A stretch of 64,000 bases of DNA from Cyanobium sp. PCC 7001 (GTDB lineage Bacteria > Cyanobacteriota > Cyanobacteriia > PCC-6307 > Cyanobiaceae), in NCBI RefSeq assembly GCF_000155635.1, contig NZ_DS990556.1, positions 2,552,607 through 2,616,606 of the forward strand, read 5' to 3'. Positions 23,951-63,318 of this stretch are shown here, in pieces; position 1 is the stretch's first letter; each line of letters opens with the position of its first letter. The position numbers were made by a program, and so were the translations under genes. The notes beneath the pieces were generated by a model that was not told the origin of the DNA, made no database searches, and saw only the letters and a list, made by a program, of their open reading frames with translations.

Positions 23951-24742
23951 ATGATCTTTCAGAAACTGCTCCTTCAGGTCAGGATTGTCAACGCCATTGC
24001 CAGGCGCGAGTTGCAGATGCGGGCGGCCAAAGGCCCCATGGGTGTCGCCGGTGTCTTTGTAGAGCCACTATTCTTCATCGCCATCTTCATGTCCTTTCGG
24101 CTGTTCGGCACGCAAGGCAGCCTTCAGCCTGATTACATCAATCCGGTGATGTGGATGGCCATTGGCTTTGTTGGTTTCTTCATGTTCTCGGAAGTGGCAC
24201 TCAAGGCTCTGGGTGGAGTGAAGAAAAGCACCAAGCTCACCTATTACAGCCGAATCCGGCCAATTGACTACCTGCTTGGCTCTGCTGTCCTTGATACCCA
24301 GGTTTTTTCCCTGCTGATCCTTGCCTTTATCCTTGGATCTTTTCTCTATGAATGGAAGCCCATCGTTGAGGAGCCAGGTCTTGCCGTCTTTTACTTCATC
24401 ATGCTCTCGCTCCTCGCGTTTGGAGTGGGTCTGGTTACCTTGATCATTGGCCATCGTCTTCCATTTGTAGCCAGTCTTGCCAGGACTGCCGTAAGGAGGC
24501 TGCTTCTGTTCACGTCCTGCATCTTCTTCTCAATCAGCACAATCCCCAATATCTTCCGCGGTTGGATTCTTTGGAATCCCCTGGCCCACGGAATTGAGTT
24601 ATTGCGCCATTCGTTTAATCATGATTATCCAATTCCGGGGGTCTCTGCTGCATACCTGATCGGATCAACGGTGTTCTTGCTTGGCTTTGGCTTCGTGATT
24701 TATGGCAACAACGAATCTCTGCTTCTCTCCGACGAGGAATGA
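23951..24742 (+). CDS. kpsM: KpsM-like ABC-2 capsule export permease
   Basis: 263 residues with about six membrane helices in the ABC-2 arrangement (VAGVFVEPLFFIAIFMSFRL, WMAIGFVGFFMFSEVALKAL, YLLGSAVLDTQVFSLLILAF, AVFYFIMLSLLAFGVGLVTL, LLLFTSCIFFSISTIP, YLIGSTVFLLGFGFVIYG). The N-terminal ARRELQMRAAKGPMGVAGV corresponds to the amphipathic segment before TM1 in KpsM/BexB. The WNPLAHGIELLRHSFNHDY loop is a family hallmark. It forms the inner-membrane channel for the lipid-linked polysaccharide. 18 bp separate it from the KpsT-like gene, and 92 bp from kpsE. Confidence 0.9.
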   Translation: MIFQKLLLQVRIVNAIARRELQMRAAKGPMGVAGVFVEPLFFIAIFMSFRLFGTQGSLQPDYINPVMWMAIGFVGFFMFSEVALKALGGVKKSTKLTYYSRIRPIDYLLGSAVLDTQVFSLLILAFILGSFLYEWKPIVEEPGLAVFYFIMLSLLAFGVGLVTLIIGHRLPFVASLARTAVRRLLLFTSCIFFSISTIPNIFRGWILWNPLAHGIELLRHSFNHDYPIPGVSAAYLIGSTVFLLGFGFVIYGNNESLLLSDEE

Positions 24743-47704: not shown

Positions 47705-50025
47705 GCTCCTACTGATGTTGGGATTGTGGGATTGGTGGCCGCGGCTCCTTCAACCGTTGGTCGCGACCCTGCACTGGCTCGGTCGTGAGTTTCCAGCCGC
47801 TCGAGAGCTCGCCAGGCTCCTTCACCTTGATTCTTATGGCCTTGCCAGATTTCCGGGATGAAGGATGCTTGCGGGGCGTAACGCTGCAACATCGCAAACA
47901 GCATCGGCCAGTCAATATCACCCTCATCAATCTGTAGCCCTTCCCCGTCAACCCCACGGGCATCGGCCAGATGCAGGTGGGCCGTCAGCGGCAGAATGCG
48001 CTCCAGAAAACCATGGAACGACTGGCCAAGATGATTGCAGGCCAATTTGGAGTGGGAGGCATCCAGGCAGACTCTGTAGCCATGCTCCACACAGAAGGAC
48101 TCAATGAAATCCGGGTCAACAAACAGGTTGTGGAAGCGTTGCCCTCCAAAATGCCAGGGGAAGGGCGGCATGGTCTGGGGAATGATTTCAACCCCGTCGC
48201 TGGAGAGTTGCGCAAGACTGTCGACAAGCGCGTTCAGCATGGTGTCCCGTTCGTCATGGCGGAGATGGTGATGTGCTGAAAATCCGCCGACATTGGTGAC
48301 CAGGAGCACATCGTTGGGGCATGTGAACCGTTCCTTGAGCTGTCGGGCAATGTTGATCACACGCTGGAGTTCCTGAATCGAGTGTTCCCGGTAGCTGGCC
48401 TCCGGACTGCAGAGATCGAGGGTGTGGTCCCCGGCGAAGAGCTCCGGGGCGTGGACCACCAGCCCAAGCGGCACCGGGCTCGGCACGGCTGTTTCGATGG
48501 GAATCTCCAGGTCTTTGTAGCTGAGGTGGATCTCCACCAGGTCCAGATTGCTGGCCTGGCTGAACAGAGCCAGATCGTGGTATCTGACCGGGACTCCGAA
48601 GGGATTGCGGAATTGGTACTGCCGTGCCCTCACTCCACCATCACCAAGGTCGGATTCAAAGAAAAAATCACCCGCACGCTTGTCGCAACTCAACGCTTTG
48701 CCCAGAAGATCACCGAGCCGGTAGGGTTGCAGGCCCTGGCCCGGACTCTGCACCCGAACCATGGTGGGCTCAATCACCGTGCCCCTTGGAATCGCACAGG
48801 CGGCTACCAGGCTCTTGGCCAGGATCTCCCGATTCATGAGTTCCCCTTGGCTGATGGCCCGCTCAGCGTCGCTGCCCATGGAGTCCTCCACGGCGCGGAT
48901 CGCTTCGACCATGCGCTGAAACTCAGCGGGAAGCAGGCTCACCTTATGGTCATTGCCCTCCATGGTGGGATCGAGGGTGATGTGCTTTTCCACAACCGCC
49001 GCCCCGAGGGCCACGGCTGCAATCGGAACTTCGATGCCACGCTCATGGCCGGAATACCCCACCGGAGCTCCGGACAGCTCGCGCAGTCGCGCGAGGTAGC
49101 GCAGGTTCACATCCTTGTAAGGGGTGGGGTACGTGGAATTGCAGTGCAGGAGAGCGAAGGGTGCGCCCAGGTTGCGAAGATGACGAATCCCACTGGTGAT
49201 TTCCAGTTCCGTGGCCATCCCGGTGGAACAGATCAGGGGTTTGCCCGTGGCGGCGATGGCACTGAGCAGCGCAGGGTTCGTGAAATCGGCTGAGGCGACC
49301 TTGAACGCCTCCATCCCCCAGTGATTCAGCTTCGCGAGACTGCTGACGTCCCATGGTGTACACATCGGAACCATCCCCTTGCGTGCTGTGTAGTCAAAGC
49401 AGCGGAAGAGATCGTCGTCGCTGAGTTGGAAGCGCTCCAGTAGATCGAGGGTGTACTGGGTTCCCAGATCCGAGGCCATGTCGTTGCTGTTGCCAGCATT
49501 GACATACAGATTTTTCATCTCGCGCATCTGAAACTTGGCGCAGTCAGCCCCTGCTGCTGCAGCCGCATCGATCAGCTGAAGAGCGAGATCCAGACTGCCA
49601 TTGTGATTATTGCCAATCTCTGCGATCGTGAAGCAAGGCGCCCCTTCCCCGATTATCCGCCCGGCAATGCGTAATTCTCTCGCCCTCTCCATGGCCACGG
49701 CAGCAATCCGGCCGTGGTTGTCCAGCAGCGGAATCAGCTGAATCTGCGGGCTGAACAGCGGACTGAGCTCCGCTGGGCTCATCCCCATCACCCCCGTTCG
49801 ACAGCGAGGGTTCATCGCCTGCGTCACGGGCGCATTGAGGTCGATGCTGCTGCAGTCAGCGACCCAGCGGCGAAAGTCGCCATCGCTGAGCACGCCCTGG
49901 AGAATGCCACTCTCGGAGACGACAAAAATCAGGCGAGACTTGTTGGCCGTGATCTTTGAAAGGGCTGTCAGAACTGTGTCTTCAGCGAAGACAACGAACT
50001 GGGTGAAGTTGCGCTCGATCTGCAT
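47701..50025 (-). CDS. neuB: Nonulosonic acid synthase fusion: CBS pair - NeuB - SAF - TIM barrel
   Basis: 774 residues in four parts. Residues 1-115 are a CBS pair (TVLTALSKITANKSRLIFVV, GVLSDGDFRRW, PLLDNHGRIAAV). Residues 130-385 are a NeuB synthase: IAEIGNNHNGSLDLALQLID, KVASADFTN, STGMATE, HCNSTYPTPY, GYSGHERG and EKHITLDPTMEGNDHKVSL. Residues 400-460 form the SAF domain. Residues 480-750 resemble a xylose isomerase-like (AP endonuclease 2) barrel with LVVHAPELF, CLDASHSKLACNHL and AHLHLADARGVDGEG. NeuB-family enzymes condense phosphoenolpyruvate with a mannosamine-type sugar to give a nine-carbon acid. The extra barrel may be an epimerase supplying that sugar. Confidence 0.85.
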   Translation of the reverse strand: MQIERNFTQFVVFAEDTVLTALSKITANKSRLIFVVSESGILQGVLSDGDFRRWVADCSSIDLNAPVTQAMNPRCRTGVMGMSPAELSPLFSPQIQLIPLLDNHGRIAAVAMERARELRIAGRIIGEGAPCFTIAEIGNNHNGSLDLALQLIDAAAAAGADCAKFQMREMKNLYVNAGNSNDMASDLGTQYTLDLLERFQLSDDDLFRCFDYTARKGMVPMCTPWDVSSLAKLNHWGMEAFKVASADFTNPALLSAIAATGKPLICSTGMATELEITSGIRHLRNLGAPFALLHCNSTYPTPYKDVNLRYLARLRELSGAPVGYSGHERGIEVPIAAVALGAAVVEKHITLDPTMEGNDHKVSLLPAEFQRMVEAIRAVEDSMGSDAERAISQGELMNREILAKSLVAACAIPRGTVIEPTMVRVQSPGQGLQPYRLGDLLGKALSCDKRAGDFFFESDLGDGGVRARQYQFRNPFGVPVRYHDLALFSQASNLDLVEIHLSYKDLEIPIETAVPSPVPLGLVVHAPELFAGDHTLDLCSPEASYREHSIQELQRVINIARQLKERFTCPNDVLLVTNVGGFSAHHHLRHDERDTMLNALVDSLAQLSSDGVEIIPQTMPPFPWHFGGQRFHNLFVDPDFIESFCVEHGYRVCLDASHSKLACNHLGQSFHGFLERILPLTAHLHLADARGVDGEGLQIDEGDIDWPMLFAMLQRYAPQASFIPEIWQGHKNQGEGAWRALERLETHDRASAGSRPTVEGAAATNPTIPTSVGA

Positions 50026-50109
50026 GCGTTTACCCGTTGCTTGACAGCATCAAATTTCTTAACGCCTCGGTATGAATCTGAACGACTGGCCTGCTTTTGC
50101 CGGGCCAGC

Positions 50110-51426
50110 TTACAGCTTGAACCTTGGGCTCGCCAGCAGGAGAATCCTGCGCCACAGGCGATGGCGTGTGCGCACCGCCCTGAGCCTGCGTCGGATGTTG
50201 CCGTTGTCGGGCCGTTGCAGGGCGGCCATCTCCAGCAGCTTGGCCGCTTCCTGGTAGTCGCGGCCGGCGATGGCCTCCTCCGCGTTCAGCCGCAGCTGGT
50301 TGCTGGACAGGTCGGCGGAGTTCACCACGTAGCCCCGTTGTTGCAGCTCGGGGGGGCAGGGCCTGGGATCGGAGTCCTGGAGCGTCCGGAGCGTTGCGAA
50401 CAGGTTGGCCGGCGAGAAGGCCGGGTCATAGCCCACCCAGTGCAGCCAGTCCGGGCAGACGGACCGATCCACCAGAGCCTCGAGACTGTCGAGGCTCTCC
50501 AGCTCGGTCAACAGGCCGCAGCCGCCGAAGAAATCCGTTCCCAGATCGTTGCGCACGCCCAGGTCGGCCACGATCAGAGGGGTGCAGCCCTGGTCCAGGG
50601 CATCGAAGAACGCCGTGGAGGAGACGGTGGCGAACAGGCGGCTTTCCCTCAGCAGCTCCGGAAGGGGCCTGTACGAGACCGTGAGGTTGCCGGCAGGCCG
50701 GGCCTGGCTGATCCGGCCCAGCGTGGTGGCGATGTGCTCCCCGGTCTCATGGAAGGTGGCCTCATGGGGGGCGACCCTGGGCTTGATCACGATCTGCCAA
50801 TCCGGGAAGCGGCGTGCCACGGCCACCAGCAGGGCGGTCAGGCGCTCCCGTTCCTCCAGCCGCGACGGCATGGCCACCTGTTCGGCGAAGACCAGCTGGC
50901 GCTTCCGCGCCATCGGGGGTGGAGGAGCCGTCACCACGGACCGGCGCAGGCCGGTGATCACGCAGCGCTGGCTGTGGTAAGGGGTGTGACGCACCAGCCG
51001 ATGGAACCGGGTTTCATCGCGGGGACCGTTGAGGCAGATGAGGTCATAGCCCAATCGCCAGGTGATGCCCTCTTCAAAGCGCTCCAGCACCACCCCGTTG
51101 AAGCCACAGAACAGCAGGGCCTGCCGGGCCGGGTGTTGCTCACGGGAGCGCACATAGGCGCTGCGGAACGCCGCGATCTTGCTGCCCGTCAGGAAGACCC
51201 CGATGGCGCTGTAGCGGCTGAGCTCGGGATCCTGAAGCAATGCCCCCATGCTCCGCTCCTGCACCTCGGCCAGCTGATGCATGCGCCGCTTCACCGCTTC
51301 CGGGGTTCCCTCACGGGGAATCAGGTTGATCGTCAGGTTCACCCCGTGGGCCGCGTGCTCCCGTGCCAGGGCTTCGCAGTACAGCAGCTGGCTGTCGGAA
51401 TCGGCGATCAGAAGGACGGAGCTCAT
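50110..51426 (-). CDS. DUF6716-like putative glycosyltransferase, copy 1
   Basis: 438 residues. It shares the layout of its two neighbours: an N-terminal Rossmann part (SVLLIADSDSQLLYCEALAR), LDPELSRYSAIGVFLTGSKI, YDLICLNGPRDETRF, WQIVIKPRVAPHEATFHE and the C-terminal RLFATVSSTAFFDALDQGC, TPLIVADLGVRNDLGTDFF, the pattern of the DUF6716 family, GT-B-like proteins linked to nonulosonic acid loci. A sialyl-like transferase role is inferred. A helical tail (residues 360-438) includes RDYQEAAKLLEMAALQRPDN, a TPR-like stretch. The ATG at 51426 overlaps the stop of copy 2 (51423-51425). Confidence 0.65.
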   Translation of the reverse strand: MSSVLLIADSDSQLLYCEALAREHAAHGVNLTINLIPREGTPEAVKRRMHQLAEVQERSMGALLQDPELSRYSAIGVFLTGSKIAAFRSAYVRSREQHPARQALLFCGFNGVVLERFEEGITWRLGYDLICLNGPRDETRFHRLVRHTPYHSQRCVITGLRRSVVTAPPPPMARKRQLVFAEQVAMPSRLEERERLTALLVAVARRFPDWQIVIKPRVAPHEATFHETGEHIATTLGRISQARPAGNLTVSYRPLPELLRESRLFATVSSTAFFDALDQGCTPLIVADLGVRNDLGTDFFGGCGLLTELESLDSLEALVDRSVCPDWLHWVGYDPAFSPANLFATLRTLQDSDPRPCPPELQQRGYVVNSADLSSNQLRLNAEEAIAGRDYQEAAKLLEMAALQRPDNGNIRRRLRAVRTRHRLWRRILLLASPRFKL

Positions 51427-52484
51427 CGGCCTTCACCATGGGCATCACGGCCTGCAGGTCCCCTGGGGCGCCCGGCCAGCCATCGCACCAACGGCTCGGC
51501 ATCCGGCTGGATGCTCCAGCCCAGTGCATGCAGCCATGCCGGGTTGGGGGGGGGGAGGTCCAGCAGGGCGTCGAGGTGCTCGCAGCTGCTGAGGCGCTGC
51601 ATGAGTCCGGAGCCGAACAGCAGGGGGCCGTCCATGTCCGTGCGGATGCCGTAGTCGCCCAGCAGGAGCAGCGGGCAGGAGCGGGCCAGAGCCTGCCACA
51701 GCAGTGGGCTGCTGATGGTGGCGCAGACCCCTGCCCTCTCCAGGCATGGCCGCCAGGCTTCCGCCGGGGAGAACCGGAGGGAGCTGGGGCGAGATCGTTG
51801 CAGCAGCAGGTCCGCCAGGCTGGGATCCTGGGGTGGCGGGTCTGGAGGATCAGTTCGGAACGGATCCGCCTGGACCGTCACGACCCAGTTGGGGGAGGCC
51901 TCGCTGAGACGCTCCAGCATCTCCAGCAGGCGTTCCCGCGCTCCGGGAGCCGGTGGCAGGTCGGCCTGCTCCAGAAACACCAGGTGCCTCGGACGCGGCA
52001 GTTGGTCCCTGGATGGTTGCTCCCCGGCGCTCTCATCGGTCCCCGGATGGCGCGGTCCCACTCCCCAGAGTCCGAGTTCCACCGAAGCCGGGGCCCGATG
52101 CCCGCTGGTGCGCAGCAGGTCGGCCAGGTCCTCACTCTGGTGCTGTCCGTGCAGACAGAGCAGGTCCACGTCCAGTCGAGGCAGCAGGTCGGCCACAAGC
52201 GCATCCCCCATCAAGGGGGCGCTTGGGCCGCTGAACACCGCCACCGGCGGGATCCCGCGCAGGGCCGCTGCCTGATGGAGGCGGCGCAGGAACGGGGGCA
52301 GCTTGTCGGACCGCACGAACAATCCGACGGCATCGAGCCGCAGCAGCAGATCGCTGGTGGCGAGAGCCTCCAGATCGAGGGGCGGCTCCTCGAGCACCTC
52401 GACCCCCTGCCGACGCAGGCTGGCCCCGAGGTGCATGCAGCCTGTCCGTGCCAGGGCCGTGTCCGCCACCAGCAGGACTCTCAT
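51423..52484 (-). CDS. DUF6716-like putative glycosyltransferase, copy 2
   Basis: 353 residues, the most divergent of the three. RVLLVADTALARTGCMHLGA, LRLDAVGLFVRSD, VDLLCLHGQHQSEDLADLL, NWVVTVQADPFRTDPP and VCATISSPLLWQALARSCPL, LLLLGDYGIRTDMDGPLLFG follow the order of the family, but the PR and STAAMESM-type positions are altered (SSPLLWQA), so it may be less active. Its stop and start overlap those of the neighbouring copies (ATGA both sides), so the three are translated as one set. Confidence 0.6.
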   Translation of the reverse strand: MRVLLVADTALARTGCMHLGASLRRQGVEVLEEPPLDLEALATSDLLLRLDAVGLFVRSDKLPPFLRRLHQAAALRGIPPVAVFSGPSAPLMGDALVADLLPRLDVDLLCLHGQHQSEDLADLLRTSGHRAPASVELGLWGVGPRHPGTDESAGEQPSRDQLPRPRHLVFLEQADLPPAPGARERLLEMLERLSEASPNWVVTVQADPFRTDPPDPPPQDPSLADLLLQRSRPSSLRFSPAEAWRPCLERAGVCATISSPLLWQALARSCPLLLLGDYGIRTDMDGPLLFGSGLMQRLSSCEHLDALLDLPPPNPAWLHALGWSIQPDAEPLVRWLAGRPRGPAGRDAHGEGR

Positions 52485-53779
52485 CGGCCGCGGACGAAGT
52501 TCTCCACCCAGCGCAGGCCCAGCAGCAGATCCCGCAGATAGCGCACCGCATTTTTGCCGCGGCTGGTGGTCTTGTGGCGTGAGCGGTTGCCAGCGCTGCT
52601 CAGCATCCGGCGGCCCCCGTGGCGCAGGGCATAGGCCTGCCAGGCCTCCGCCCCCCAGCCCGGTGGCCCCAGGGAGGCGGTGGACAGTGCCCCCCTGGTT
52701 GTGTTGCCCTGCTCCAGGCGTTCGGCCAGGGCTTCGACGAAACGGCCAGCGCCGTTCTGACAGCGGCCGTGGCGGTCGAGCCAGCCTTCATCGTGGATCG
52801 GCGTGAAGGGGTCAGCGATGATCGCCTCGAAGCTGCGGACGGTGTTGGACCCCATGAAGTAGTGGTTGCCCAGGGTTTCGTTCACACCCAGATCCGCCAC
52901 GATTCGGGTGCTGATGCCCAGAGCCATGGATTCCATGGCTGCCGTGGAGGAGACGGTGATCGCACAGCCGCACTGGCGCAGGAGGGCCAGGCTGGGCTTG
53001 TAGTTGATCTGGAGATTGGGAGACTTCCGCATCAGTTTCTCGATCCGGCTCGCCATCTCCCCGTGCCGGCGGTGCAGGGTGCGTTCCACGCCGGAGGTCC
53101 GGGGCTTGAAGATCACGGTGTGCTCCGGCCAGCGCTTGGCCAGGTCGTTGAGACGGTTGCAGATGTAGTGGCGCTGGAGGGGATTGGCCGGTACGGAGGG
53201 CTGTTCGAAGAAGACGATGGTGGGGTTCTCTCCGGGGCCCCGGCGGCCGTGATGCAGGTTCCAGAGGATGGGGAGCCCTGTGACCACCGCGTTGTCGGCA
53301 CTGAGCCCCTGGGCCTCGCAGGCCTGCCGGTAGAGCTCCAGATCCACCGGGGAGTTCAGGCAGAGGAGGTCGACGCCGGAGCGGTCCATCATTCCTTCGA
53401 TCTGGTGGCGGAAGAGGATGCCGGGATAGGCACTCACCGTGAGCGGCCAGCGGCCCTCCGTGATGTCCGACTGCAGCAGCAGCTGCACTTCCCGGGTGCG
53501 CTGGCCATCCAGTCCGAGCACCAGCACATCGAGCTCCGCCAGGGAGCTGCGCATCTGGCGCAGGGCCTGCCACTCCTGGCGCACGATCGTGACCCTCGCA
53601 TCGATGCGCTGAATCTCCAGCAGCTGGCGGCGCGAGAGGCGCCGTCCCTGGATCTCCAGGAGGTACAGGGTGGTTCGGGCGTTCTGGCGGCGGCACTGCG
53701 AGAGCATCGTCATTGCTGTCTTCCCGAAGGAATCGAAGCTGGCGATCGCCGCGATCTGCCTCCCGTCGAGCCGGCTCAT
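52481..53779 (-). CDS. DUF6716-like putative glycosyltransferase, copy 3
   Basis: 432 residues from the ATG at 53779, which overlaps the neuA stop (ATGA). IAAIASFDSFGKTAMTMLSQ, LDVLVLGLDGQRTREVQLLL, VDLLCLNSPVDLELYRQACE, NPTIVFFEQPSVPANPLQRH, HTVIFKPRTSGVERTLHRRH and CAITVSSTAAMESMALGIST then RIVADLGVNETLGNHYFMGS are the clearest examples of the family motifs. The immediate neighbour is the CMP-activating enzyme NeuA, so it is likely to use a CMP-nonulosonate donor and attach it to the capsule. Confidence 0.7.
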   Translation of the reverse strand: MSRLDGRQIAAIASFDSFGKTAMTMLSQCRRQNARTTLYLLEIQGRRLSRRQLLEIQRIDARVTIVRQEWQALRQMRSSLAELDVLVLGLDGQRTREVQLLLQSDITEGRWPLTVSAYPGILFRHQIEGMMDRSGVDLLCLNSPVDLELYRQACEAQGLSADNAVVTGLPILWNLHHGRRGPGENPTIVFFEQPSVPANPLQRHYICNRLNDLAKRWPEHTVIFKPRTSGVERTLHRRHGEMASRIEKLMRKSPNLQINYKPSLALLRQCGCAITVSSTAAMESMALGISTRIVADLGVNETLGNHYFMGSNTVRSFEAIIADPFTPIHDEGWLDRHGRCQNGAGRFVEALAERLEQGNTTRGALSTASLGPPGWGAEAWQAYALRHGGRRMLSSAGNRSRHKTTSRGKNAVRYLRDLLLGLRWVENFVRGR

Positions 53780-54531
53780 GCGGCACCTCCGGCGGGATCG
53801 GGATCGAGCAGCCCGGCCAGCTGACGGCACACCGCCAGATCCAGCGGCGTGTCGATCTCCGGGGCCGGTCCGTCCACCTCGACGGGCAGCAGAGGGGGCA
53901 CAAAGCGGTTCCGTGCTGCCAGGAAGGGGGCGGTGCGCAGCGCGTAGATGGCGCCGGTCTCGAGATAACACGGCTCCAGATCCTGGCGCCGCTGCCTGGG
54001 GAGGCTGGCGTCGTGATTCACCCCGCGGCCCCAGCCGGATGGATCCCGGCTCCAGAGGAAGCCATGCCAGGGGATCACGGCCATCGCCGTGTTGGCGGAG
54101 GAGGTCTGCAGCTGCCTCACCACCGCGTCGATCTGCGCGCCCGTGGTGAAGGGCGATGTGCACTGAAGGAAGACGAACAGGGGGGGGAGTGGCCCGTCCT
54201 GTGCCAGCTGTTCGAGCGCGTGCAGCAGGGCGGACTCCGATGAGGCGGCATCGCCGGCGAGGGCCTCGGGCCTGGTAACGACCTCGGCGCCAGCCGCGCT
54301 GGACGCGTCAGCGATGGCGGGGTCGTCGGTGCTCACAACGGCGCGGCCGACGCTGTTCGCCGCCAGAGCTGCAGCGATGGTGCGGCACACCAGGGGGACC
54401 CCCCCCACGGGCTGCAGATTCTTGCCGGGAATGCCCTTGGAGCCACCCCGGGCCGGGATCAGGGCCAGGGCCTGAAGGGTCGGATCGATGACTGGGGCAG
54501 GCTGCTCACGAGGTTGGATCTCCGCTTCCAT
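53776..54531 (-). CDS. neuA: CMP-N-acylneuraminate cytidylyltransferase-like protein
   Basis: 251 residues from the ATG at 54531; an ATG at 54579 would overlap the kpsC stop by 14 bp. It activates a nonulosonic acid by forming the CMP-sugar. Family motifs: ALALIPARGGSKGIPGKNLQ, AVVSTDDPAIADASSAAGAE, FVFLQCTSPFTTGAQIDAVV, CYLETGAIYALR and the final EIDTPLDLAVC (divalent-metal Asp). It is co-transcribed with kpsC upstream and the DUF6716-like genes downstream, and its partner is the neuB fusion at 47701. Confidence 0.92.
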   Translation of the reverse strand: MEAEIQPREQPAPVIDPTLQALALIPARGGSKGIPGKNLQPVGGVPLVCRTIAAALAANSVGRAVVSTDDPAIADASSAAGAEVVTRPEALAGDAASSESALLHALEQLAQDGPLPPLFVFLQCTSPFTTGAQIDAVVRQLQTSSANTAMAVIPWHGFLWSRDPSGWGRGVNHDASLPRQRRQDLEPCYLETGAIYALRTAPFLAARNRFVPPLLPVEVDGPAPEIDTPLDLAVCRQLAGLLDPDPAGGAA

Positions 54532-54565
54532 CCCCAGGACCCCGGGGCCCGCACATCCCGAGAAC

Positions 54566-56764
54566 CTAGCAGTGGCCATCGGGGAACCAGACGCGCAGGC
54601 GGGCCCGGGCCTGGGCCAGGCTGAAGCGAATTCCAGGCGGCAGTGTCAGGCCGAAGACCTCCAGCCAGCGCGGCTCAGGCGCCGGGAAGCGGCGATGCCC
54701 CTGGCGCAGCAGGGTCAGCTCCTCGACCGCCCGCTCCGGCGTGGTGTAGCAGCCGGTGGCCAGACTCAGATACACCGGATAGTGGATCAGGGCCGCGAAG
54801 ACCAGATCATCGAGCTGCAGGCTCCGCCCGCGTCTGGGGCATTGCAGCCGATCCTGGCTGAGGCCCCAGCCGGCGTAGAAGGGCATTCCCCAGGTGGTGA
54901 CGGGGATGCCCCGCAACAGGGCCTCGAAGCCCGTGATCGAGGTGCGCACGTGCACCCCATCCACCGCCTCCAGCAGGGCCTCCATGGGAGCATCCGGAAG
55001 CACAAGGTCGCAGTGCCGGTGCGCCTGCTCTTCGCCAGGACCGGGACGCTGGCGGCCGGAGATCACATCCGGGTGGGGTTTGTAGATCAGGAAGGCCTCC
55101 GGATGGGCGGCGCGGACGGCGCAGAGGAGCTGGAGGTTGCTGCGCACACTGGCCTCCGCCGGCACGCCGTAGCGGATGGAGAGGTCCACCTCCACCTGGC
55201 CGGGCACCAGCAGCACGGGCCGTTCCCCCAGGTGAGCGGGGCGTCGCCAGGGTGGGGCCGTGAGGTTGTACTTGGTGAGGCGCGAGGCCACGATCCGGTG
55301 GCGCAGGGCGGCGGCACGCCGGCGCTCGGAATCACTGAACGGATGCGTGGCCAGGAAGGTTTCCAGATCGCTGGGGCCGGAGGCGTCGTAGTAGATGCCG
55401 CTGTGGTCCACCACCCAGGAGATCGGGGGCACCCAGCGCAGCCACCAGCCCTGGCCAACGGAGCGGAGAAAACCATCCTCCGCGTGGATCAGGGGAACTC
55501 CCGCCTGCCGGAGGCCGCGGCCGACACGCTTGCCCCACACCAGCGAGCGGCAATCCCCGGAGGTGGAGGGGCGGGCATGGAAGCCGCGGAACCGCAGGCG
55601 GCGGGGGGTGAGGCTCCGCTGAAAACGGCGCACGGCATTGCGTTTCCAGCCGGCGATGCCGAACACCTCCAGGTTGCGGGGCACGGTGGAGCGCTGGCGC
55701 CGCTGCAGCCCCACATGGGCGATCAACCGTTCGGGTGTGGTGATCTGCCCGGTTTCGGGGTCCAGGTAACGGGCATAGCTCACCAGGCAGCTGTGGATCA
55801 GGCTCTCGACATCGGCGCCGTGCCGGCGTCCGCCATGGGCTGGTGGAGCCAGGCGGTCCTGGGTGAGGCCCCAGCCCGCGTAGAAGGGCATGCCGAAGCA
55901 GTGCACCGGCCTGCCCCAGATCAGGGCCTCGAATCCCATCTGGGAGGTCACCACGTACACCGCCGTCGCCGCCTCGAGCAGCCCGGCGGGATGGCCGCCA
56001 TCGATGCAGGCGCTCACCCGGGGATGCTGGAGGGCCTCCTGGGGGAAGTGTCCGCGCCGCCTGCCGCTCACCACATCGGGGTGGGTCTTGAGCAGGATGC
56101 GATGGCGGGGAAAATCCTCCAGTGCGGACTGCAGCATGGCGCTGAAGCTCGCCGCGGAGGCGCTTCCGTAGCGGATGGCCGCGTCATCGGCCACCTGGTC
56201 CACCACCAGCACGAAGTCCTCGTCGGGCACGGGCGACTCGGCTGCCGCATTCACCTTGCTCACCCGCTGGTGGCGCCAGGCCCTGGCCAGGGCCTGGGCC
56301 CGCTGCCGCTGTCCGTGATCGAGTCCGGCGGCGATCAGGGCCTCCAGTCGGCTCGGCCGCGAGGCGTCGTAGTGGATGCCCCGATCGTCCAGCAGAACCC
56401 CGAGGGGCGGAGCGCCGGGGCCGGGATCCACGGACCGGAGGAAGGCGTCCTCGACCCGCCAGAGGGGGACGTTGTGGCGTCGGGCCGCCTGCTCCCCCCA
56501 GCGGCCGCTGGGGCGTCGACCCCAGACCAGCAGGGCATTCAGCTTCCGCCGCTGGCAGGCCTGCCGTCCCACCACGAGCCTGGCTGGCGCCAGCAGATCG
56601 CTCAGGGTGGTGTGCGCCAGAACCAGGGGGTCCGGCAGCCCGAGCACTGGGCCGTCTCGGGCAGGGCTCGCGGTGCCGCCTCCGTCGGGCGGGACCTCCG
56701 GAAGCAAGGGAGTTAGGGCAGGGGATGCGGCCGGCGGCGGGCTGTTCCCCATCCCTGGACCCAT
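54566..56764 (-). CDS. kpsC: KpsC-like dual-module beta-Kdo transferase
   Basis: 732 residues from an ATG at 56764. Two tandem Capsule_synth modules are visible: one at about 40-370 (VWGRRPSGRW, VEDAFLRSVDPG, GIHYDASRPSRLE, VVDQVADDAAIRYGSASAAS, LKTHPDVVSGRRRGHF, PVHCFGMPFYAGWGLTQDRL) and one at about 385-715 (LVWGKRVGRG, AEDGFLRSVGQG, GIYYDASGPSDLE, VPGQVEVDLSIRYG, YKPHPDVISGRQRPG, VTTWGMPFYAGWGLSQDRLQ). KpsC builds the poly-Kdo linker on the lipid. The Kdo supply genes (kdsA, kdsB, kpsF, kpsU) are not in the window. It diverges from kpsS. Confidence 0.93.
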   Translation of the reverse strand: MGPGMGNSPPPAASPALTPLLPEVPPDGGGTASPARDGPVLGLPDPLVLAHTTLSDLLAPARLVVGRQACQRRKLNALLVWGRRPSGRWGEQAARRHNVPLWRVEDAFLRSVDPGPGAPPLGVLLDDRGIHYDASRPSRLEALIAAGLDHGQRQRAQALARAWRHQRVSKVNAAAESPVPDEDFVLVVDQVADDAAIRYGSASAASFSAMLQSALEDFPRHRILLKTHPDVVSGRRRGHFPQEALQHPRVSACIDGGHPAGLLEAATAVYVVTSQMGFEALIWGRPVHCFGMPFYAGWGLTQDRLAPPAHGGRRHGADVESLIHSCLVSYARYLDPETGQITTPERLIAHVGLQRRQRSTVPRNLEVFGIAGWKRNAVRRFQRSLTPRRLRFRGFHARPSTSGDCRSLVWGKRVGRGLRQAGVPLIHAEDGFLRSVGQGWWLRWVPPISWVVDHSGIYYDASGPSDLETFLATHPFSDSERRRAAALRHRIVASRLTKYNLTAPPWRRPAHLGERPVLLVPGQVEVDLSIRYGVPAEASVRSNLQLLCAVRAAHPEAFLIYKPHPDVISGRQRPGPGEEQAHRHCDLVLPDAPMEALLEAVDGVHVRTSITGFEALLRGIPVTTWGMPFYAGWGLSQDRLQCPRRGRSLQLDDLVFAALIHYPVYLSLATGCYTTPERAVEELTLLRQGHRRFPAPEPRWLEVFGLTLPPGIRFSLAQARARLRVWFPDGHC

Positions 56765-56851: not shown

Positions 56852-58903
56852 ATGGGAAGATGGGGAGGCCCGGCCGCAGGTGTGGCATTGGTCAGCGTTC
56901 AGGTGCAGATCGAAGGCCCCGTGCTGCTGCTGATGGGTCCGATCGGTCTCTTTTTTTCGCGGCTGTGGCGCTACCTGCACGATTCGGGCGTGCCGGCCTA
57001 CAAGATCTCCTTTCCGCTCCACGAGTTCGGCTTCCCAGGCCGCGCCCGAATCCCCTACAGCGGCTCGATGCAGGACTGGCCGGCATTCCTGCGCGGCGTG
57101 ATCGAGGAGAAAGGGATTCGCCATCTGTTCATGTATGGCGATTTCATCGACCCCCACCGTCTTGCCATTCAAGTGGCCAACGACATGGGTGTGGATGCCT
57201 ATGTCTTTGAGCTCGGCTACGTCCGACCCAACTACGTCACCCTTGAGCGGGATCGTGTCAATTGCCGATCCAATCTCAATCGACCCGTTGAATTCTACGA
57301 GGCGCTGCCGCCTGTCTCCAGTCTGCCGCAGGCGCGACTGGATCCTGGCTGGCGTTGGCGCAAGATCTGGAAGGCGCCCACATTCATTCAGCATGCCTTC
57401 ACCCGTTACCGCATCATTGAGGGTGAACACAAACTGCAGCCATCCCCGGGATTTCTCTGGTGCCAGGTCCGCGGATCCGTGCGCTATTGGATGTACAGGT
57501 TGGAGGAGCGCAAGCTCAAGCGACTGCTGGTGGAGAACCTTTCCTTCTTCCTTGCAGTTCTTCAGGTTTCCAGCGATTCCCAGATCACGATGGGATCGGG
57601 ATTCCGTGGCATGCACGACTTCATTGAAACGGTGATCGTCTCGTTTGCCGCCCACGCTCATCCGTCCGATCACCTGGCCTTCAAGCACCACCCCCGTGAC
57701 CGCGGTTACAACAATTACAAGGGGTTGATCCGCCTGCTGGCGGAGCGGGAGGGTGTGGCCGGCCGGGTGCACTACTTCCACGACGGTCCCCTCAGTGCCT
57801 TCATTCGTACCTGCCGCGGCGTGGTGACCGTCAACAGCACCGTGGGGCTTCAGGCGCTGTTCCATGCTGCCCCCACCAAGGTGCTGGGGCAGACGTTCTA
57901 CAACCTGCGGGGTCTCACGGATCAGCAGTCTCTTGATGATTTCTGGGTGTCACCCCAGCCCAGCCATCGCCCGCTCTTCTACCGCTTCTACCACCATCTC
58001 GTCACCACGACCCAGGTCAATGGCAACTTTGATGGGGAGTTTCCCTTTCGGGACACCCTGCCAGTGTCTTCTGTGGCACGATCCAGCACGGCTCTGCTGA
58101 CTGCCGGCCGTCCCAACGTCAGAGGCTGGGTGCTTCCCTTCAGGGTGGCCTATCGGCTCCTGTGCTTCCTGTTGATGTACCTGGCCTATGCCCTGGAGCT
58201 GCTGGCCCTCACCCTGGGCTTGCGGAGGATCGCCAGTCGCCTGCTCACCAGCGTGGCACGCTTCGGCCTCAGGGCCCTTGGGCTGGACGTCATCGTGGAT
58301 GACAGTTTGCTCAATGCCGAGGACGACAGGCCTCGCATTCACATCTGGAACCACAACAGTCCCTTCGATGTGTTTGCGATCCAGGCCTATCTCCGGATGC
58401 CGGCCGTCACCACCTCCGGGCTGCACCTCAACCGGCTATTGCCGTTCTTCGACCGCTCCGCCAGCAACGCCGGCCACGTGCTGCTCGACCATCGACAGCC
58501 CGACCAGCGGCGCAGCAGTCTGTGGCAGGCCTCCCAGGTGCTTGAACGCCACGGCCAGCTGATGATCGCGCCCAACGGGTCGCTGCGGACGTCGATCCTT
58601 CACCGGGCCTCCGCCAGTGCCTTTCTGCTGGCCAGGCGGCATCAGGCCATCGTGGTGCCTTGGTGGTTCGAATACCGGGGGCTGGAGGGCATCGACGCCG
58701 CCACCCTCTACAAGCCCCTCCGGCTTCTGGCCCAGCGCCTCTGCGCTCCCAGGGCCGTGCTGCACTGCCGCCAGGGCCGTCCGGAGGACCTCCAGCTTCA
58801 GCCCGAGGAACGGCATCGCGACGGCTTTTCCCGTCGGGTGATCGCGTACTACTCCCAGGATGCGGCGGGGTGGGCTGAGGCCCACCACAGCGCGGCATCC
58901 TGA
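56852..58903 (+). CDS. kpsS: KpsS-like Kdo transferase fused to a PlsC-type acyltransferase
   Basis: 683 residues from the ATG at 56852; GTG starts at 56819 and 56882 are possible. Residues 20-430 are KpsS: GPVLLLMGPIGLFFSRLWRY (near-identical plan to E. coli KpsS), MYGDFIDPHRLA, VFELGYVRPNYVTLE, LAFKHHPRDRGYNN and GVVTVNSTVGLQALFHAAP. A hydrophobic segment (FRVAYRLLCFLLMYLAYALE) leads to a PlsC/LPLAT domain: HX4D at 501-506 (HNSPFD), GHVLLDH, IAPNGSLR and AIVVPWWFEYRG. KpsS adds the first Kdo to lyso-phosphatidylglycerol, so a fused acyltransferase could build or re-acylate that lipid. Confidence 0.85.
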   Translation: MGRWGGPAAGVALVSVQVQIEGPVLLLMGPIGLFFSRLWRYLHDSGVPAYKISFPLHEFGFPGRARIPYSGSMQDWPAFLRGVIEEKGIRHLFMYGDFIDPHRLAIQVANDMGVDAYVFELGYVRPNYVTLERDRVNCRSNLNRPVEFYEALPPVSSLPQARLDPGWRWRKIWKAPTFIQHAFTRYRIIEGEHKLQPSPGFLWCQVRGSVRYWMYRLEERKLKRLLVENLSFFLAVLQVSSDSQITMGSGFRGMHDFIETVIVSFAAHAHPSDHLAFKHHPRDRGYNNYKGLIRLLAEREGVAGRVHYFHDGPLSAFIRTCRGVVTVNSTVGLQALFHAAPTKVLGQTFYNLRGLTDQQSLDDFWVSPQPSHRPLFYRFYHHLVTTTQVNGNFDGEFPFRDTLPVSSVARSSTALLTAGRPNVRGWVLPFRVAYRLLCFLLMYLAYALELLALTLGLRRIASRLLTSVARFGLRALGLDVIVDDSLLNAEDDRPRIHIWNHNSPFDVFAIQAYLRMPAVTTSGLHLNRLLPFFDRSASNAGHVLLDHRQPDQRRSSLWQASQVLERHGQLMIAPNGSLRTSILHRASASAFLLARRHQAIVVPWWFEYRGLEGIDAATLYKPLRLLAQRLCAPRAVLHCRQGRPEDLQLQPEERHRDGFSRRVIAYYSQDAAGWAEAHHSAAS

Positions 58904-58931: not shown

Positions 58932-60182
58932 TCAGGCTGACTGCAGCACCAGCGAGATGTTGTGGCCACCGAAGCCGAAGGCATTCTTGAGCGCGCTGCG
59001 GCTGTGGGATGGCGCCGCCAGAGCGGCCGGTTGCTCTGTCACCAGATGGAGCCGGATCGCCGGGTCCCGGGGTTCGGCGTTGACGCTCACGGGGATCAGG
59101 CCGCTCTGGAGGGCGCGCAGGGCCATGATCGTCTCCACGGCCCCCGCGCCTCCGAGCATGTGGCCGAACTGGCCCTTGGGTGCCGTGACCGGAATCTCAC
59201 TGTGGCGACGGCCGAGGAAGCAGGAGATGGCCTGGGCTTCGGCAAGGTCGCCCATTGGTGTGCCGGTGGCATGGGCCTGGATGAAGCCGAGGTCGTCGAG
59301 ACTGAGGCCACTGCGGCCCAGGGCCTGCTGCATGGCGGCACAGGCCTGGGTGCCCTGGGGATCGGGGGTCACCATGTGGTGGGCATCGGCCGTGCTGCCC
59401 GCGTCGAGCAGAAAACCTGCGCAGTGCGCCCCGCGGCTGCGGGCGTCCCGCTCCCGTTCGAGCACCAGGATGCCGGCTCCTTCGGCAATCACGAAACCGT
59501 CCCGGTCGCGGCCGTAGGGACTGGAGGCCAGCTCCGGGGTGGCGTTGCGGGTGGAGAGGGCCCGCATGGCGCTGAATCCGGCTAGGCCCAGCGGGTTCAC
59601 CGGCGCTTCCGATCCTCCGGCGATCACCACGTCGGCCCGGTCATCCCGCAACAGCATCAGGGCCCACAACAGAGCTTCCGCGGAAGACGCACAGGCGGAG
59701 ACGGGGGTGTGGGCTCCTGCGTGGGCCCCCAGAGCGATGCTGATCTGCCCCGCTGCGGCATTGGGAATCAGCATCGGAACGGTGACGGGATTGACCCTGG
59801 CCGGCCCCCGCTCCAGCAGGGTGCGGTACTGCTGCCCCATGGTCTCCAGACCACCGATGCCACAGCCGACCACCACGGCAATCCTGGCGCCGTCCCCCTG
59901 CTCGGCTGGGCTGAGCTGAGCCTGGTCCCACGCCTCCAGAGCGGCGAGCAGGGCCAGCTGGGAATAGCGGTCCAGGCGCCGTTTCTGCAGCGGCTCCAGA
60001 CTTGCGGTGGGATCACCGGGCACCACCCCGGCCAGCCGGGAGGGCAGTGCCGCTGCCCACTCCTGCTCCAGCAGCCGGATGCCGGACTGTCCTGTCAGGT
60101 AGTGGGTCCAGCAAGGCTCAACACCACAGCCGAGGGGGGACACCACGCCCATGCCGGTGATGGCGATCCTCTCCTGGCTCAC
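58932..60182 (-). CDS. Beta-ketoacyl-ACP synthase II-like enzyme (FabF type)
   Basis: 416 residues. The catalytic set is complete: Cys164 in SACASSAEALL, His304 in IQAHATGTPMGD, Lys336 and His341 in APKGQFGHMLGGAGAVE. The SACASS context around the Cys is more like KAS enzymes of specialised pathways than the TACAxG of housekeeping FabF, which in cyanobacteria usually sits by acpP and tktA. Here it sits downstream of an unusual ACP (140 bp) and next to kpsS, so it may elongate acyl chains for a capsule lipid. It converges with the kpsS fusion, 28 bp apart. Confidence 0.85.
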   Translation of the reverse strand: MSQERIAITGMGVVSPLGCGVEPCWTHYLTGQSGIRLLEQEWAAALPSRLAGVVPGDPTASLEPLQKRRLDRYSQLALLAALEAWDQAQLSPAEQGDGARIAVVVGCGIGGLETMGQQYRTLLERGPARVNPVTVPMLIPNAAAGQISIALGAHAGAHTPVSACASSAEALLWALMLLRDDRADVVIAGGSEAPVNPLGLAGFSAMRALSTRNATPELASSPYGRDRDGFVIAEGAGILVLERERDARSRGAHCAGFLLDAGSTADAHHMVTPDPQGTQACAAMQQALGRSGLSLDDLGFIQAHATGTPMGDLAEAQAISCFLGRRHSEIPVTAPKGQFGHMLGGAGAVETIMALRALQSGLIPVSVNAEPRDPAIRLHLVTEQPAALAAPSHSRSALKNAFGFGGHNISLVLQSA

Positions 60183-60322
60183 GGCACGTGCTTCACGGAA
60201 GTGGTTGGGTCGAGCGTGGAGACGCAGCCAAACCTAGACGGCAGGTCTGCTGGCCCTTGCCAGCACCGGTGGACCAGCACCGGTGGAGCCGCCTGACCCG
60301 TGGTGACGTGCTTGTCGTGCAG

Positions 60323-60685
60323 TCAAAGCTGGAGGTCGTCGAGCCGCGCGTTCTCACGCTGCTCGATGTAGGTGACGATGTCGCGGACCGTCTTGAAGGT
60401 GAGCAGATCCTTCTCTTCAATCTTGATGCCCATCGTTTCGTCGGCTTCGATCAAGATCTCATAGAAGCCGAGGGAATCCACGCCAACATCGTCGATGATC
60501 AGTGCATCGAGTGTGATGGATTCGGGGTCGGCACCGGCGATTCTGGCGAGAATGTCCGTCAGCCCGGCCAGGATTTCGGCGCGGCTCAGCGCCCGCCGAA
60601 CAGCAGGGTTGCCATCGGCTTCACCACTCGGCTGAGCCTTGGTGGGTTCGTCGTTGGGTTCTGTTGGGTTGACGGAATCTGCCAA
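60323..60685 (-). CDS. Acyl carrier protein with an N-terminal extension
   Basis: 120 residues. The four-helix ACP core occupies about residues 30-112, with the 4'-phosphopantetheine Ser71 in the VGVDSLGFYEILIEADET motif, and the helical patterns LTDILARIAGADPESITLDA and FKTVRDIVTYIEQRENAR. Housekeeping AcpP is near 80 residues and has no such 28-residue acidic, Pro-rich N-terminus (NPTEPNDEPTKAQPSGEADG). It starts 9 bp after the GNAT gene stop and precedes the KAS gene, so the three form an operon-like unit. Confidence 0.88.
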   Translation of the reverse strand: MADSVNPTEPNDEPTKAQPSGEADGNPAVRRALSRAEILAGLTDILARIAGADPESITLDALIIDDVGVDSLGFYEILIEADETMGIKIEEKDLLTFKTVRDIVTYIEQRENARLDDLQL

Positions 60686-60694
60686 GGGAGCCTC

Positions 60695-61852
60695 TTATTT
60701 CGGACGGGACTGGGCTGTCAGTGTTTGCTCCCTTAGTTTATCATCACGTTCTTGCGGGGATGGTCCAGTCAGGTTGCTGGTGTTCTTCGCAACCTCATCC
60801 TCATCCTCGCCACGGAACCAGGGAAACTTTCGATAGACCGGTGCATGGGGAAAGCCCACGAAGTGCTGCAGTCTTCGATGGGGGACCTTGGTGAGGTCCG
60901 CAGTCATCAGGATTTCAGTGATCTGGTTGAAATCCTTGGCAATCGAGATGTCATGGGTTCTCGCTCCCATCAGATTGATGTACTGCCGCAGCAGCACCGG
61001 AAGCCGAAAGGAGGCCAGCTGCTTCTGCGCTTCTGCCTCCAGCTGCTGGATGGTCTGGCAGGCTCCATCGGCATGCTGCTCGTCGCCGCGGAAGGCCCGT
61101 GGGTAGCGGGCAGGGGGAAGTTCGGCCACGGGACTCCTGAATGGGGGCAGCATCAGGGAGCGCAGAAAAAAATCATTGACGCTTCCTGGGTACTGGAAAT
61201 GGTTGTAGGAAACGAGTCCGTAGACAGCTGTGTAGCCAGCTGCGATGGCGGCTTGCAGACCACCTCGAAATAGGGTCATCAACGAAGCGGGCTGCCGTTG
61301 GAAGGCCGGGGAGATGGCCACACGTCCGATCTCCAGATGGCTGCCCCTGGCCATCAGGCAATTCTTGATCCCTGGATAGACGTGTTCCAGGTACGAGGTG
61401 GATGAGCTGTGCGTGGAGGGCGTTGAGGGTGCTTCCTGGCCAGGGCGCAGAGTGGGGACGAACTGCAGTCTCGCTGTGCCTGCCAGGGCAAAGGTGGTGT
61501 CGTCAACCAACACGAAGTGATCGTAGTAGGGATCGCGACCGTCGAGATCCTTGTTGTTGCCCGATCCAGAGAGCTTCTGGCGGTAGGTGAGCTCGCGCAG
61601 CAGCCCCACTTCATCCGCAAAGTTCTCAAACGTATTGCCAGGGATGAGAAAGAGAGTCAGGCCGTAGTTGGAAAAAAAGAAAAAAGGCTTGATATCATCA
61701 ATCAGGACGCGACTCAGCGGGATCATCGGCTGCTCAGGTTGCTGGGATTGAACAAGAACCTCGTCCTTGCCGTCAGGAAGACGTGGAGACTGGTCGCTGA
61801 GGCGGCAATGCCCGGTGGCTGTGGCCGCATGGTCTTGCCGCAAGTGTGCCAT
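60695..61852 (-). CDS. OlsB-like GNAT-fold N-acyltransferase
   Basis: 385 residues from the ATG at 61852, which has an AGGA 5 bp upstream; a second ATG at 61726 (343 aa) begins directly at the conserved part. The core resembles the hemolysin/OlsB-type Acetyltransf_5 domain: LLRELTYRQKL, DPYYDHFVLVDDTTFALAGT, ARLQFVP, HLEIGRVAISPAFQRQPASL, MTLFRGGLQAAIAAGYTAVY, GLVSYNHFQYPGS. These enzymes transfer 3-hydroxyacyl groups from ACP to amines. The ACP gene 9 bp downstream is a likely partner. Poly-A tracts (A7 G A6, 61672-61685) near the 5' end could cause slippage. Confidence 0.7.
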   Translation of the reverse strand: MAHLRQDHAATATGHCRLSDQSPRLPDGKDEVLVQSQQPEQPMIPLSRVLIDDIKPFFFFSNYGLTLFLIPGNTFENFADEVGLLRELTYRQKLSGSGNNKDLDGRDPYYDHFVLVDDTTFALAGTARLQFVPTLRPGQEAPSTPSTHSSSTSYLEHVYPGIKNCLMARGSHLEIGRVAISPAFQRQPASLMTLFRGGLQAAIAAGYTAVYGLVSYNHFQYPGSVNDFFLRSLMLPPFRSPVAELPPARYPRAFRGDEQHADGACQTIQQLEAEAQKQLASFRLPVLLRQYINLMGARTHDISIAKDFNQITEILMTADLTKVPHRRLQHFVGFPHAPVYRKFPWFRGEDEDEVAKNTSNLTGPSPQERDDKLREQTLTAQSRPK

Positions 61853-62079: not shown

Positions 62080-63318
62080 ATGTCCCTGAATCCCCTGTTC
62101 CCCCGGCAGCCCGGCTGGCAGGCACCGCTGAGAACAGGGGTCTGTGGACTGGTGCTCGCCCAGTGCGCCCTCACCGCCGTCCCAGCGGCCGTGCGTTCGG
62201 CGCCTCAGGCCTACCCGATGCCTGGAGAGGCTTCGACCCCATCGGTGGCCCCTCCTTCCGAGGGTCGGCCGTCCCGTCTGGAGGGGACAAGCGTGGTGAA
62301 GCGCCAGTCCCAGGATCCCCGCCACAGCGGCTTCCGCTACCGCCTGGCTCCTGGCGATCGGGTCAGGGTCACCGTGTTCAAGGTCGAGGGCTATGGAGCT
62401 GAAACCGAGGTCCTCAGCGACGGCACCATCAACCTGCCGCGGATCGGCTCGGTGAACGTCTGGGGCATGACCCTCGATGAGGCGAACAACCGGATCACCG
62501 CCCTCTACAGCGCCATCCTCAGGCGCCCCCTCGTCTATATCGATCTGATGGCACCCCGCCCGGTGCGGGTGTCCCTGGTGGGGCAGGTCGAGCGGCCAGG
62601 CTTCTACACCCTCAGCCGCGATCCCTCCTCCTCCACACTGAGGGCCTCAGGCCCTGGCCTTGAGGGGGTGGGAACGGTCGTTAACACGTCTGGTTGGCCC
62701 ACGATGGTGGATGCGCTCCAGAGGGCCGGCGGCATCACGGCGCTGGGGGACCTCTCCAACCTGGTGCTGGTCCGCCGTGGCAATGCCCCCGGAGAACCGT
62801 CCCGTGAGTACCGCTTCGATTACCTCAGCGTCTTGATGGGGAACGGCACCGCCGTGAACCCGCTGATCAATGACGGGGACATGATCAAGGTCGACAAGGT
62901 GGAGGGGGTCCAGTCCAGTGAAGCCCTGATCGCCTCGGCCGCCTCCAATTTCGCCCCCGATGCCATCTCGGTGAACGTGGTGGGAGAGGTGGTCAGCCCG
63001 GGGGTCAAGCAGGTGAAGTCCAACAGTCCCCTCACCAATGCCGTGCTGGCGGCTGGAGGACTCGATCCCCAGCGGGCCAAGGCCTCCAACATCCGCCTGC
63101 TGAGGATGGAGGCCGACGGCTCGATCCTGTCGCGTCAGGTGGCTTTCGATCCAGCGGCACCGTTGGGTTCGGAGGCCAATCCCCCGTTGCGCAATGGCGA
63201 TGTGGTGGTGGTCTACCGCAACAACTGGACCCGCTTCAACGACACCCTCTCCCAGGCAGTTGCTCCACTGGGCCCCCTGCTCAACGCAGCCTCGCTGTAC
63301 AACATCCTCACCCGCTGA
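62080..63318 (+). CDS. Polysaccharide export outer-membrane protein (Wza/KpsD-like)
   Basis: 412 residues from the ATG at 62080. A hydrophobic segment near the start (GVCGLVLAQCALTAVPAAV) is a signal peptide-like region. YRLAPGDRVRVTVFKVEGYG begins the poly_export domain, followed by LSDGTINLPRIGSVNVWGMT. SLBB-like ligand-binding repeats come next (VSLVGQVERPGFYTLSRDPS, VNVVGEVVSPGVKQVKSNSP, each followed by an LxxAGGxxxx helix). It forms the outer-membrane channel that KpsE contacts. The gene diverges from the GNAT-fold gene and sits 62 bp before purB's end. Confidence 0.9.
   Translation: MSLNPLFPRQPGWQAPLRTGVCGLVLAQCALTAVPAAVRSAPQAYPMPGEASTPSVAPPSEGRPSRLEGTSVVKRQSQDPRHSGFRYRLAPGDRVRVTVFKVEGYGAETEVLSDGTINLPRIGSVNVWGMTLDEANNRITALYSAILRRPLVYIDLMAPRPVRVSLVGQVERPGFYTLSRDPSSSTLRASGPGLEGVGTVVNTSGWPTMVDALQRAGGITALGDLSNLVLVRRGNAPGEPSREYRFDYLSVLMGNGTAVNPLINDGDMIKVDKVEGVQSSEALIASAASNFAPDAISVNVVGEVVSPGVKQVKSNSPLTNAVLAAGGLDPQRAKASNIRLLRMEADGSILSRQVAFDPAAPLGSEANPPLRNGDVVVVYRNNWTRFNDTLSQAVAPLGPLLNAASLYNILTR

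Follow-up and report, generated by a model that had tools for sequence, protein, structure and literature searches.

The window, i.e. the whole stretch of 64,000 nucleotides from Cyanobium sp. PCC 7001 that was analyzed, harbors a gene in which a KpsS-type domain is fused to an acyltransferase (LPLAT) domain, flanked by kpsC on one side and by genes for a ketoacyl synthase (KS), an acyl carrier protein (ACP) and a GNAT acyltransferase on the other (Table 1). The reading frame of the fusion gene contains neither an internal stop nor a frameshift, and the gene occurs as a single copy in the genome. By employing Pfam, the two halves were identified as Capsule_synth (PF05159; residues 94-393, E 2e-55, 189 bits against a cut-off of 20) and Acyltransferase (PF01553; residues 488-606, E 7e-10, 39 bits against a cut-off of 23). 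The original prediction, that both reside in one polypeptide, was thereby borne out, and the fusion recurs full-length in independent genomes, where the intact versions are 46-87% identical to the window protein. A frameshift or assembly error as the source of the fusion was ruled out, as many independent genomes share it. In the structural model of the fusion protein (pLDDT 82, pTM 0.58), the N-terminal domain has a beta-Kdo transferase fold, with WbbB as the best PDB match (Z 16.3 over 276 residues, 3.7 Å) and KpsC at Z ~14, while the C-terminal domain has the PlsC fold, matching Thermotoga maritima PlsC (5kym) with Z 14.4 over 228 residues.

Table 1. Features of the capsule locus, in window positions.
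Feature	Position	Strand	Details
ABC-2 membrane protein, KpsM-like	23951..24742	+	PF01061
kpsC, two beta-Kdo transferase modules (QVADD, QVEVD), divergent from kpsS	54566..56752	-	PF05159
kpsS-LPLAT fusion gene	56852..58903	+	683 aa
Beta-Kdo transferase (KpsS-type) domain	56909..58075	+	~residues 20-408; PF05159; WbbB and KpsC fold matches
QVSSD, QxxxD nucleophile motif (Q238, D242)	57563..57577	+	alignment of 34 sequences
LPLAT (PlsC-fold) domain	58118..58900	+	residues 423-683; PF01553; 5kym PlsC Z 14.4
N-terminal helical hairpin of LPLAT domain	residues 427-475		predicted helices
HNSPFD, catalytic HX4D motif (His is H501)	58352..58369	+	alignment
PNGSL, in place of motif III PEGTR	58571..58585	+	alignment
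FabF-like ketoacyl synthase, extra paralogue	58932..60182	-	438 bits, cut-off 494
Acyl carrier protein, extra paralogue, DSL serine present	60323..60685	-	PF00550
GNAT acyltransferase, OlsB/FeeM/LuxI-like	60695..61726	-	PF13444
kpsD/Wza-type export protein, start uncertain	62161..63318	+	Poly_export and SLBB

The position of kpsC next to kpsS is conserved in the flanks compared, and the KS, ACP and GNAT genes (58932-61726) are convergent with the fusion gene. Further genes in the window may concern the polymer itself. A CBS-NeuB-SAF-TIM-barrel protein of 774 aa is encoded in the region 47701-54579, together with a CTP_transf_3 cytidylyltransferase and, in a row, three putative DUF6716 glycosyltransferases. 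This gene set is conserved in Cyanobium/Synechococcus loci and suggests a nonulosonic-acid part in the polymer. Sulfotransferase-domain genes are found at 34220-35275 and 46817-47704, and the polymer may therefore be sulfated. A similar-looking glycosyltransferase-like gene of ~300-330 aa, possibly a conserved Kps glycosyltransferase, was noted in kps loci of freshwater cyanobacteria, Prochlorococcus, a deltaproteobacterium and an Aquificaceae (L046:6019-7005, L053:6069-6983, L111:689-1627 and L114:7424-8416).

The Kdo transferase half

The N-terminal domain was aligned with its counterparts, and Q238, D242, E120 and H279 were found to be invariant in all 34 KpsS-type sequences. The QxxxD nucleophile motif has been defined for KpsC (PMC10148158), and the assignment of E120 and H279 as the catalytic Glu and His is by analogy with the same enzyme. 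The NCBIfam KpsS equivalog model NF050054 matches with E 2e-80, although the 270.8 bits lie below its cut-off of 600, and this half is consequently named KpsS-type and not a KpsS equivalog. With that wording, the KpsS identity given in the original prediction stands, as PF05159, the QxxxD/Glu/His set and the WbbB/KpsC fold all agree, and the domain is likely a retaining beta-Kdo transferase of the KpsS type.

Kdo-8-phosphate synthase (KdsA) scored above its cut-off in all 34 KpsS genomes, compared to 98 of the 200 genomes overall. Absence of Kdo from the host was ruled out, as both kdsA and kdsB are present in Cyanobium sp. PCC 7001. Taken together, the catalytic residues, the fold and the Kdo genes make Kdo transfer by this domain likely. 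A WaaA homologue is present in Cyanobium sp. PCC 7001 and some relatives, while being absent or weak in others, and with a homologue in the host, Kdo may serve more than the capsule. In Prochlorococcus loci such as L053 (L053:2772-6042), genes that by eye look like a kdsB-kdsC fusion, kdsA and kpsF adjoin kpsS and kpsC, forming a compact Kdo set.

The acyltransferase half

The C-terminal domain belongs to the LPLAT superfamily, but neither its score nor its motifs make it a PlsC/AGPAT. Its profile match to Thermotoga PlsC has an E-value of 9e-5, while its TIGR00530 (PlsC/AGPAT) score of 28.6 bits does not reach the cut-off of 102.95. The original prediction credited it with all four LPLAT landmarks, of which HX4D and the motif IV Pro are indeed canonical. 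The other two are altered family-wide: the motif II Arg is replaced by His (GHVLLDH), or by Tyr in some members, and the Glu of motif III PEGTR by Asn or Ser. In the PlsC family, these Arg and Glu residues bind the acceptor phosphate, and judging from the motifs the domain no longer looks suited to a glycerol-phosphate acceptor.

The HX4D His is retained in 29 of the 33 fused LPLAT domains, and dN/dS values of 0.08-0.13 between close relatives indicate purifying selection. Three of the genomes that lack the His (G062, G066 and G092) have an intact stand-alone LPLAT gene following the fusion, and between two of these the decayed domain has a dN/dS of 0.31. In the fourth, G185, the fused domain has decayed with no replacement copy nearby. 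The replacement of a decayed fused copy by a stand-alone one suggests that LPLAT activity is needed, though not necessarily in the same chain as KpsS. The same arrangement, a decayed fused domain with an intact tandem stand-alone LPLAT, was noted in the loci L042, L043 and L044 (and L088), the tandem copies of which form one clade, weakly adjacent to the window's own fused domain.

Distribution of the fusion

Relatives were searched both for fusions and for separate acyltransferase genes beside kpsS, and both were found. Among 200 genomes from the same order as Cyanobium sp. PCC 7001, 34 had the KpsS domain, joined in 33 to a C-terminal LPLAT-derived domain that has decayed in four. The exception, G102, has KpsS and GNAT without a linked LPLAT. 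Named genomes with the fusion belong to Cyanobium, Synechococcus and Vulcanococcus, a narrow range that is biased by the scan, for which two peptide patterns of the KpsS domain served as queries. Prochlorococcus instead has kpsS (~410 aa) and LPLAT (~244 aa) as separate neighboring genes in ten loci, eight of which read GTGA at the junction, i.e. the stop of one gene overlaps the start of the other. Separate, adjacent and mostly overlapping genes argue for a strong functional link between the two.

An LPLAT profile run against 386 genomes of the phylum (142 genera) gave no match outside the same family, and neither LPLAT nor GNAT was seen in the available flanking DNA of three non-cyanobacterial KpsS loci (L111, L112 and L114). 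KpsS/KpsC themselves have a confined spread in cyanobacteria (Pereira 2015). A cyanobacterial fusion with GNAT was also encountered on a contig labelled Bifidobacterium breve (L079), almost certainly a mis-binned cyanobacterial contig. No description of a KpsS-acyltransferase fusion was found in a literature search.

The neighboring GNAT, ACP and ketoacyl synthase

GNAT was found in exactly the same 34 of the 200 genomes as KpsS, a co-occurrence that, being within one family, partly reflects shared ancestry. It adjoins kpsS in nearly every complete locus, with L103 lacking a GNAT nearby. All 26 GNAT members matched PF13444, and five of the 26 also matched Pfam FeeM. The structural model (pLDDT 86) has acyl-homoserine-lactone synthases (BjaI, RpaI, TofI and LasI) and the N-acyl amino acid synthase FeeM as best matches (Z 12.9-13.4), with other GNATs close behind at Z 12.4. 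The invariant residues are D62-D65, R86 and E132-R135, the spacing of which presumably resembles that of the LuxI family and serves as a lead only. Scores against the OlsB and OlsF equivalog models were far under the cut-offs (54.6 against 620 and 21.6 against 350 bits, respectively). The GNAT profile gave no real match to PDB sequences, and no homology between GNAT and LPLAT was found.

In most loci, KS and ACP are situated between GNAT and kpsS. They are additional to a housekeeping pair elsewhere in the genome, where e.g. the housekeeping FabF scores 634 bits. One subclade and Prochlorococcus lack the KS-ACP pair next to kpsS, and the pair is therefore helpful and not essential.

A proposed route to the capsule lipid

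The domains, fold, catalytic motifs, conservation, co-occurrence and gene coupling are shown by the analysis. We hold with moderate confidence that the fusion is a two-domain capsule-initiation enzyme, i.e. a KpsS-type Kdo transferase and an acyl-ACP-dependent LPLAT O-acyltransferase, which works with the neighboring GNAT, usually together with ACP and KS, to build a lipid primer. For this enzyme we infer the acyl donor, acceptor, product, membrane association and order of steps as follows. KS and ACP would shape the acyl donor, from which GNAT would make a single-chain lipid, either an N-acyl (amide-linked) or an otherwise mono-acylated primer. The fused LPLAT domain, associated with the membrane, would add a second acyl chain onto a hydroxyl, and the KpsS domain would place the first beta-Kdo on the lipid. 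KpsC would then extend the Kdo, after which the KpsM/D machinery would assemble and export the polymer. This suggests a so far undescribed route by which picocyanobacteria make a capsule lipid anchor of their own.

Both the GNAT co-occurrence and the additional ACP and KS speak for a lipid of dedicated origin, possibly amide-linked, and not for phospholipid remodelling. Two-step aminolipid synthesis has as its signature the combination of a PF13444 N-acyltransferase and a PF01553 O-acyltransferase (PMC11631085), and at the kpsS loci a PF13444 gene is likewise linked to a PF01553 gene. As a tentative extension, plausible but short of probable, the anchor would be a purpose-built, phosphate-free amide lipid (aminolipid) made by GNAT and the KpsS-fused LPLAT, and not lyso-phosphatidylglycerol (lyso-PG), so that completing the lipid and attaching the first Kdo would fall to a single polypeptide. 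In the original prediction, lipid handling was coupled to capsule initiation with lyso-PG as the acceptor. The coupling is upheld by the conserved fusion, the overlapping split genes in Prochlorococcus and the CMP-Kdo genes; remodelling of a phospholipid is not, as GNAT, ACP and KS point elsewhere. Lyso-PG as the acceptor finds no support in the form given there, the LPLAT lacking the PlsC-type phosphate-acceptor residues and the co-occurring GNAT and extra ACP/KS having been overlooked.

Two other readings concern the fusion as such. That a PlsC paralogue was joined to KpsS by chance, with no link in pathway, is hardly credible: nothing beyond the generic Pfam match favors it, several genera have the fusion with the same neighbors, kpsS and LPLAT are separate yet overlapping in Prochlorococcus, and the fused domain is distinct from the host PlsC copies, so that conservation already contradicts it. 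The fused domain could also mainly be a membrane tether for KpsS via its helical hairpin, with catalysis dispensable, and the decayed copies (G062, G066, G092 and G185) have indeed lost motif I but still have the hairpin region. We regard this as quite improbable, with the catalytic His kept in 29 of 33 fused domains, purifying selection acting on the domain, and an intact separate LPLAT adjoining three of the four decayed cases.

The remaining readings keep the catalysis but change the acceptor. In a remodelled classical anchor, KpsS would add Kdo to lyso-PG and the LPLAT would convert (lyso)PG or Kdo-lyso-PG into a diacyl lipid by re-acylation, leaving GNAT, ACP and KS to serve another step. 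KpsS and KpsC are intact, Kdo is available, the domain has the PlsC fold, and E. coli K5 termini have been reported as both mono- and diacyl PG (PMC7694667). The family-wide loss of the motif II Arg and PEGTR Glu argues against this, and the strict GNAT co-occurrence would be left unexplained; we thus consider it possible, although unlikely and less favored than a dedicated acyl-ACP module. Alternatively, LPLAT and GNAT might acylate sugars, i.e. Kdo or polymer residues, instead of the anchor lipid, somewhat like VexE on UDP-GlcNAc. VexE is indeed an LPLAT-domain enzyme with a sugar substrate (PMC9597891), and the acceptor-side residues are changed here, but Vi systems are without KpsS/KpsC (PMC12220298), both of which are intact in this locus, and fusion to the first Kdo transferase favors a step at the lipid end, making sugar acylation improbable. 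The dedicated acyl-ACP module remains our preferred reading.

For the KpsS/KpsC capsules characterized so far, (lyso)phosphatidylglycerol is the presumed lipid, and the literature examined yielded no acyltransferase dedicated to such capsules. The conserved set described here, which occurs in abundant cyanobacteria of oceans and lakes, joins the Kdo-initiating enzyme to two acyltransferases and often also to an acyl donor of its own. Dedicated capsule acylation would thereby be extended beyond VexE, and the source of the capsule lipid becomes testable in culturable strains. Speculatively, a phosphate-free anchor would suit life in phosphate-poor water.

Comparison with known systems

E. coli group 2 KpsS shares the QxxxD beta-Kdo transferase domain, the adjacent kpsC and the Kps-type export genes. 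It is however monofunctional (PMC10148158), whereas the present protein has the LPLAT attached and scores well under the KpsS equivalog cut-off. Thermotoga maritima PlsC (5kym) has the fold and HX4D in common with the fused domain, but here the motif II Arg and motif III Glu are replaced. The FeeL/FeeM N-acyl amino acid synthase and ACP resemble the neighboring genes in the GNAT fold match (Z 13.2) and the ACP gene nearby, although the sequence identity between FeeM and GNAT is low (13%). The FeeL/FeeM system is not known to contain LPLAT or KpsS.

VexE of the Vi antigen, an LPLAT-domain, ACP-dependent acyltransferase for a glycolipid anchor, sets the precedent for such an enzyme serving specifically the anchor of a capsule with ABC export (PMC9597891). 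It differs in acylating UDP-GlcNAc, in a system without KpsS/KpsC, while the present locus has both, along with a GNAT, and carries the LPLAT on the same polypeptide as the Kdo transferase. Lastly, OlsB/OlsA (ornithine lipid) and related aminolipid systems share the linked PF13444 N-acyltransferase and PF01553 O-acyltransferase (PMC11631085), but no link of these systems to capsule genes is known, and the GNAT scores far under the OlsB/OlsF cut-offs. By analogy, the picocyanobacterial module may work like OlsB/OlsA with KpsS added, although its scores place it outside the OlsB and OlsF families.
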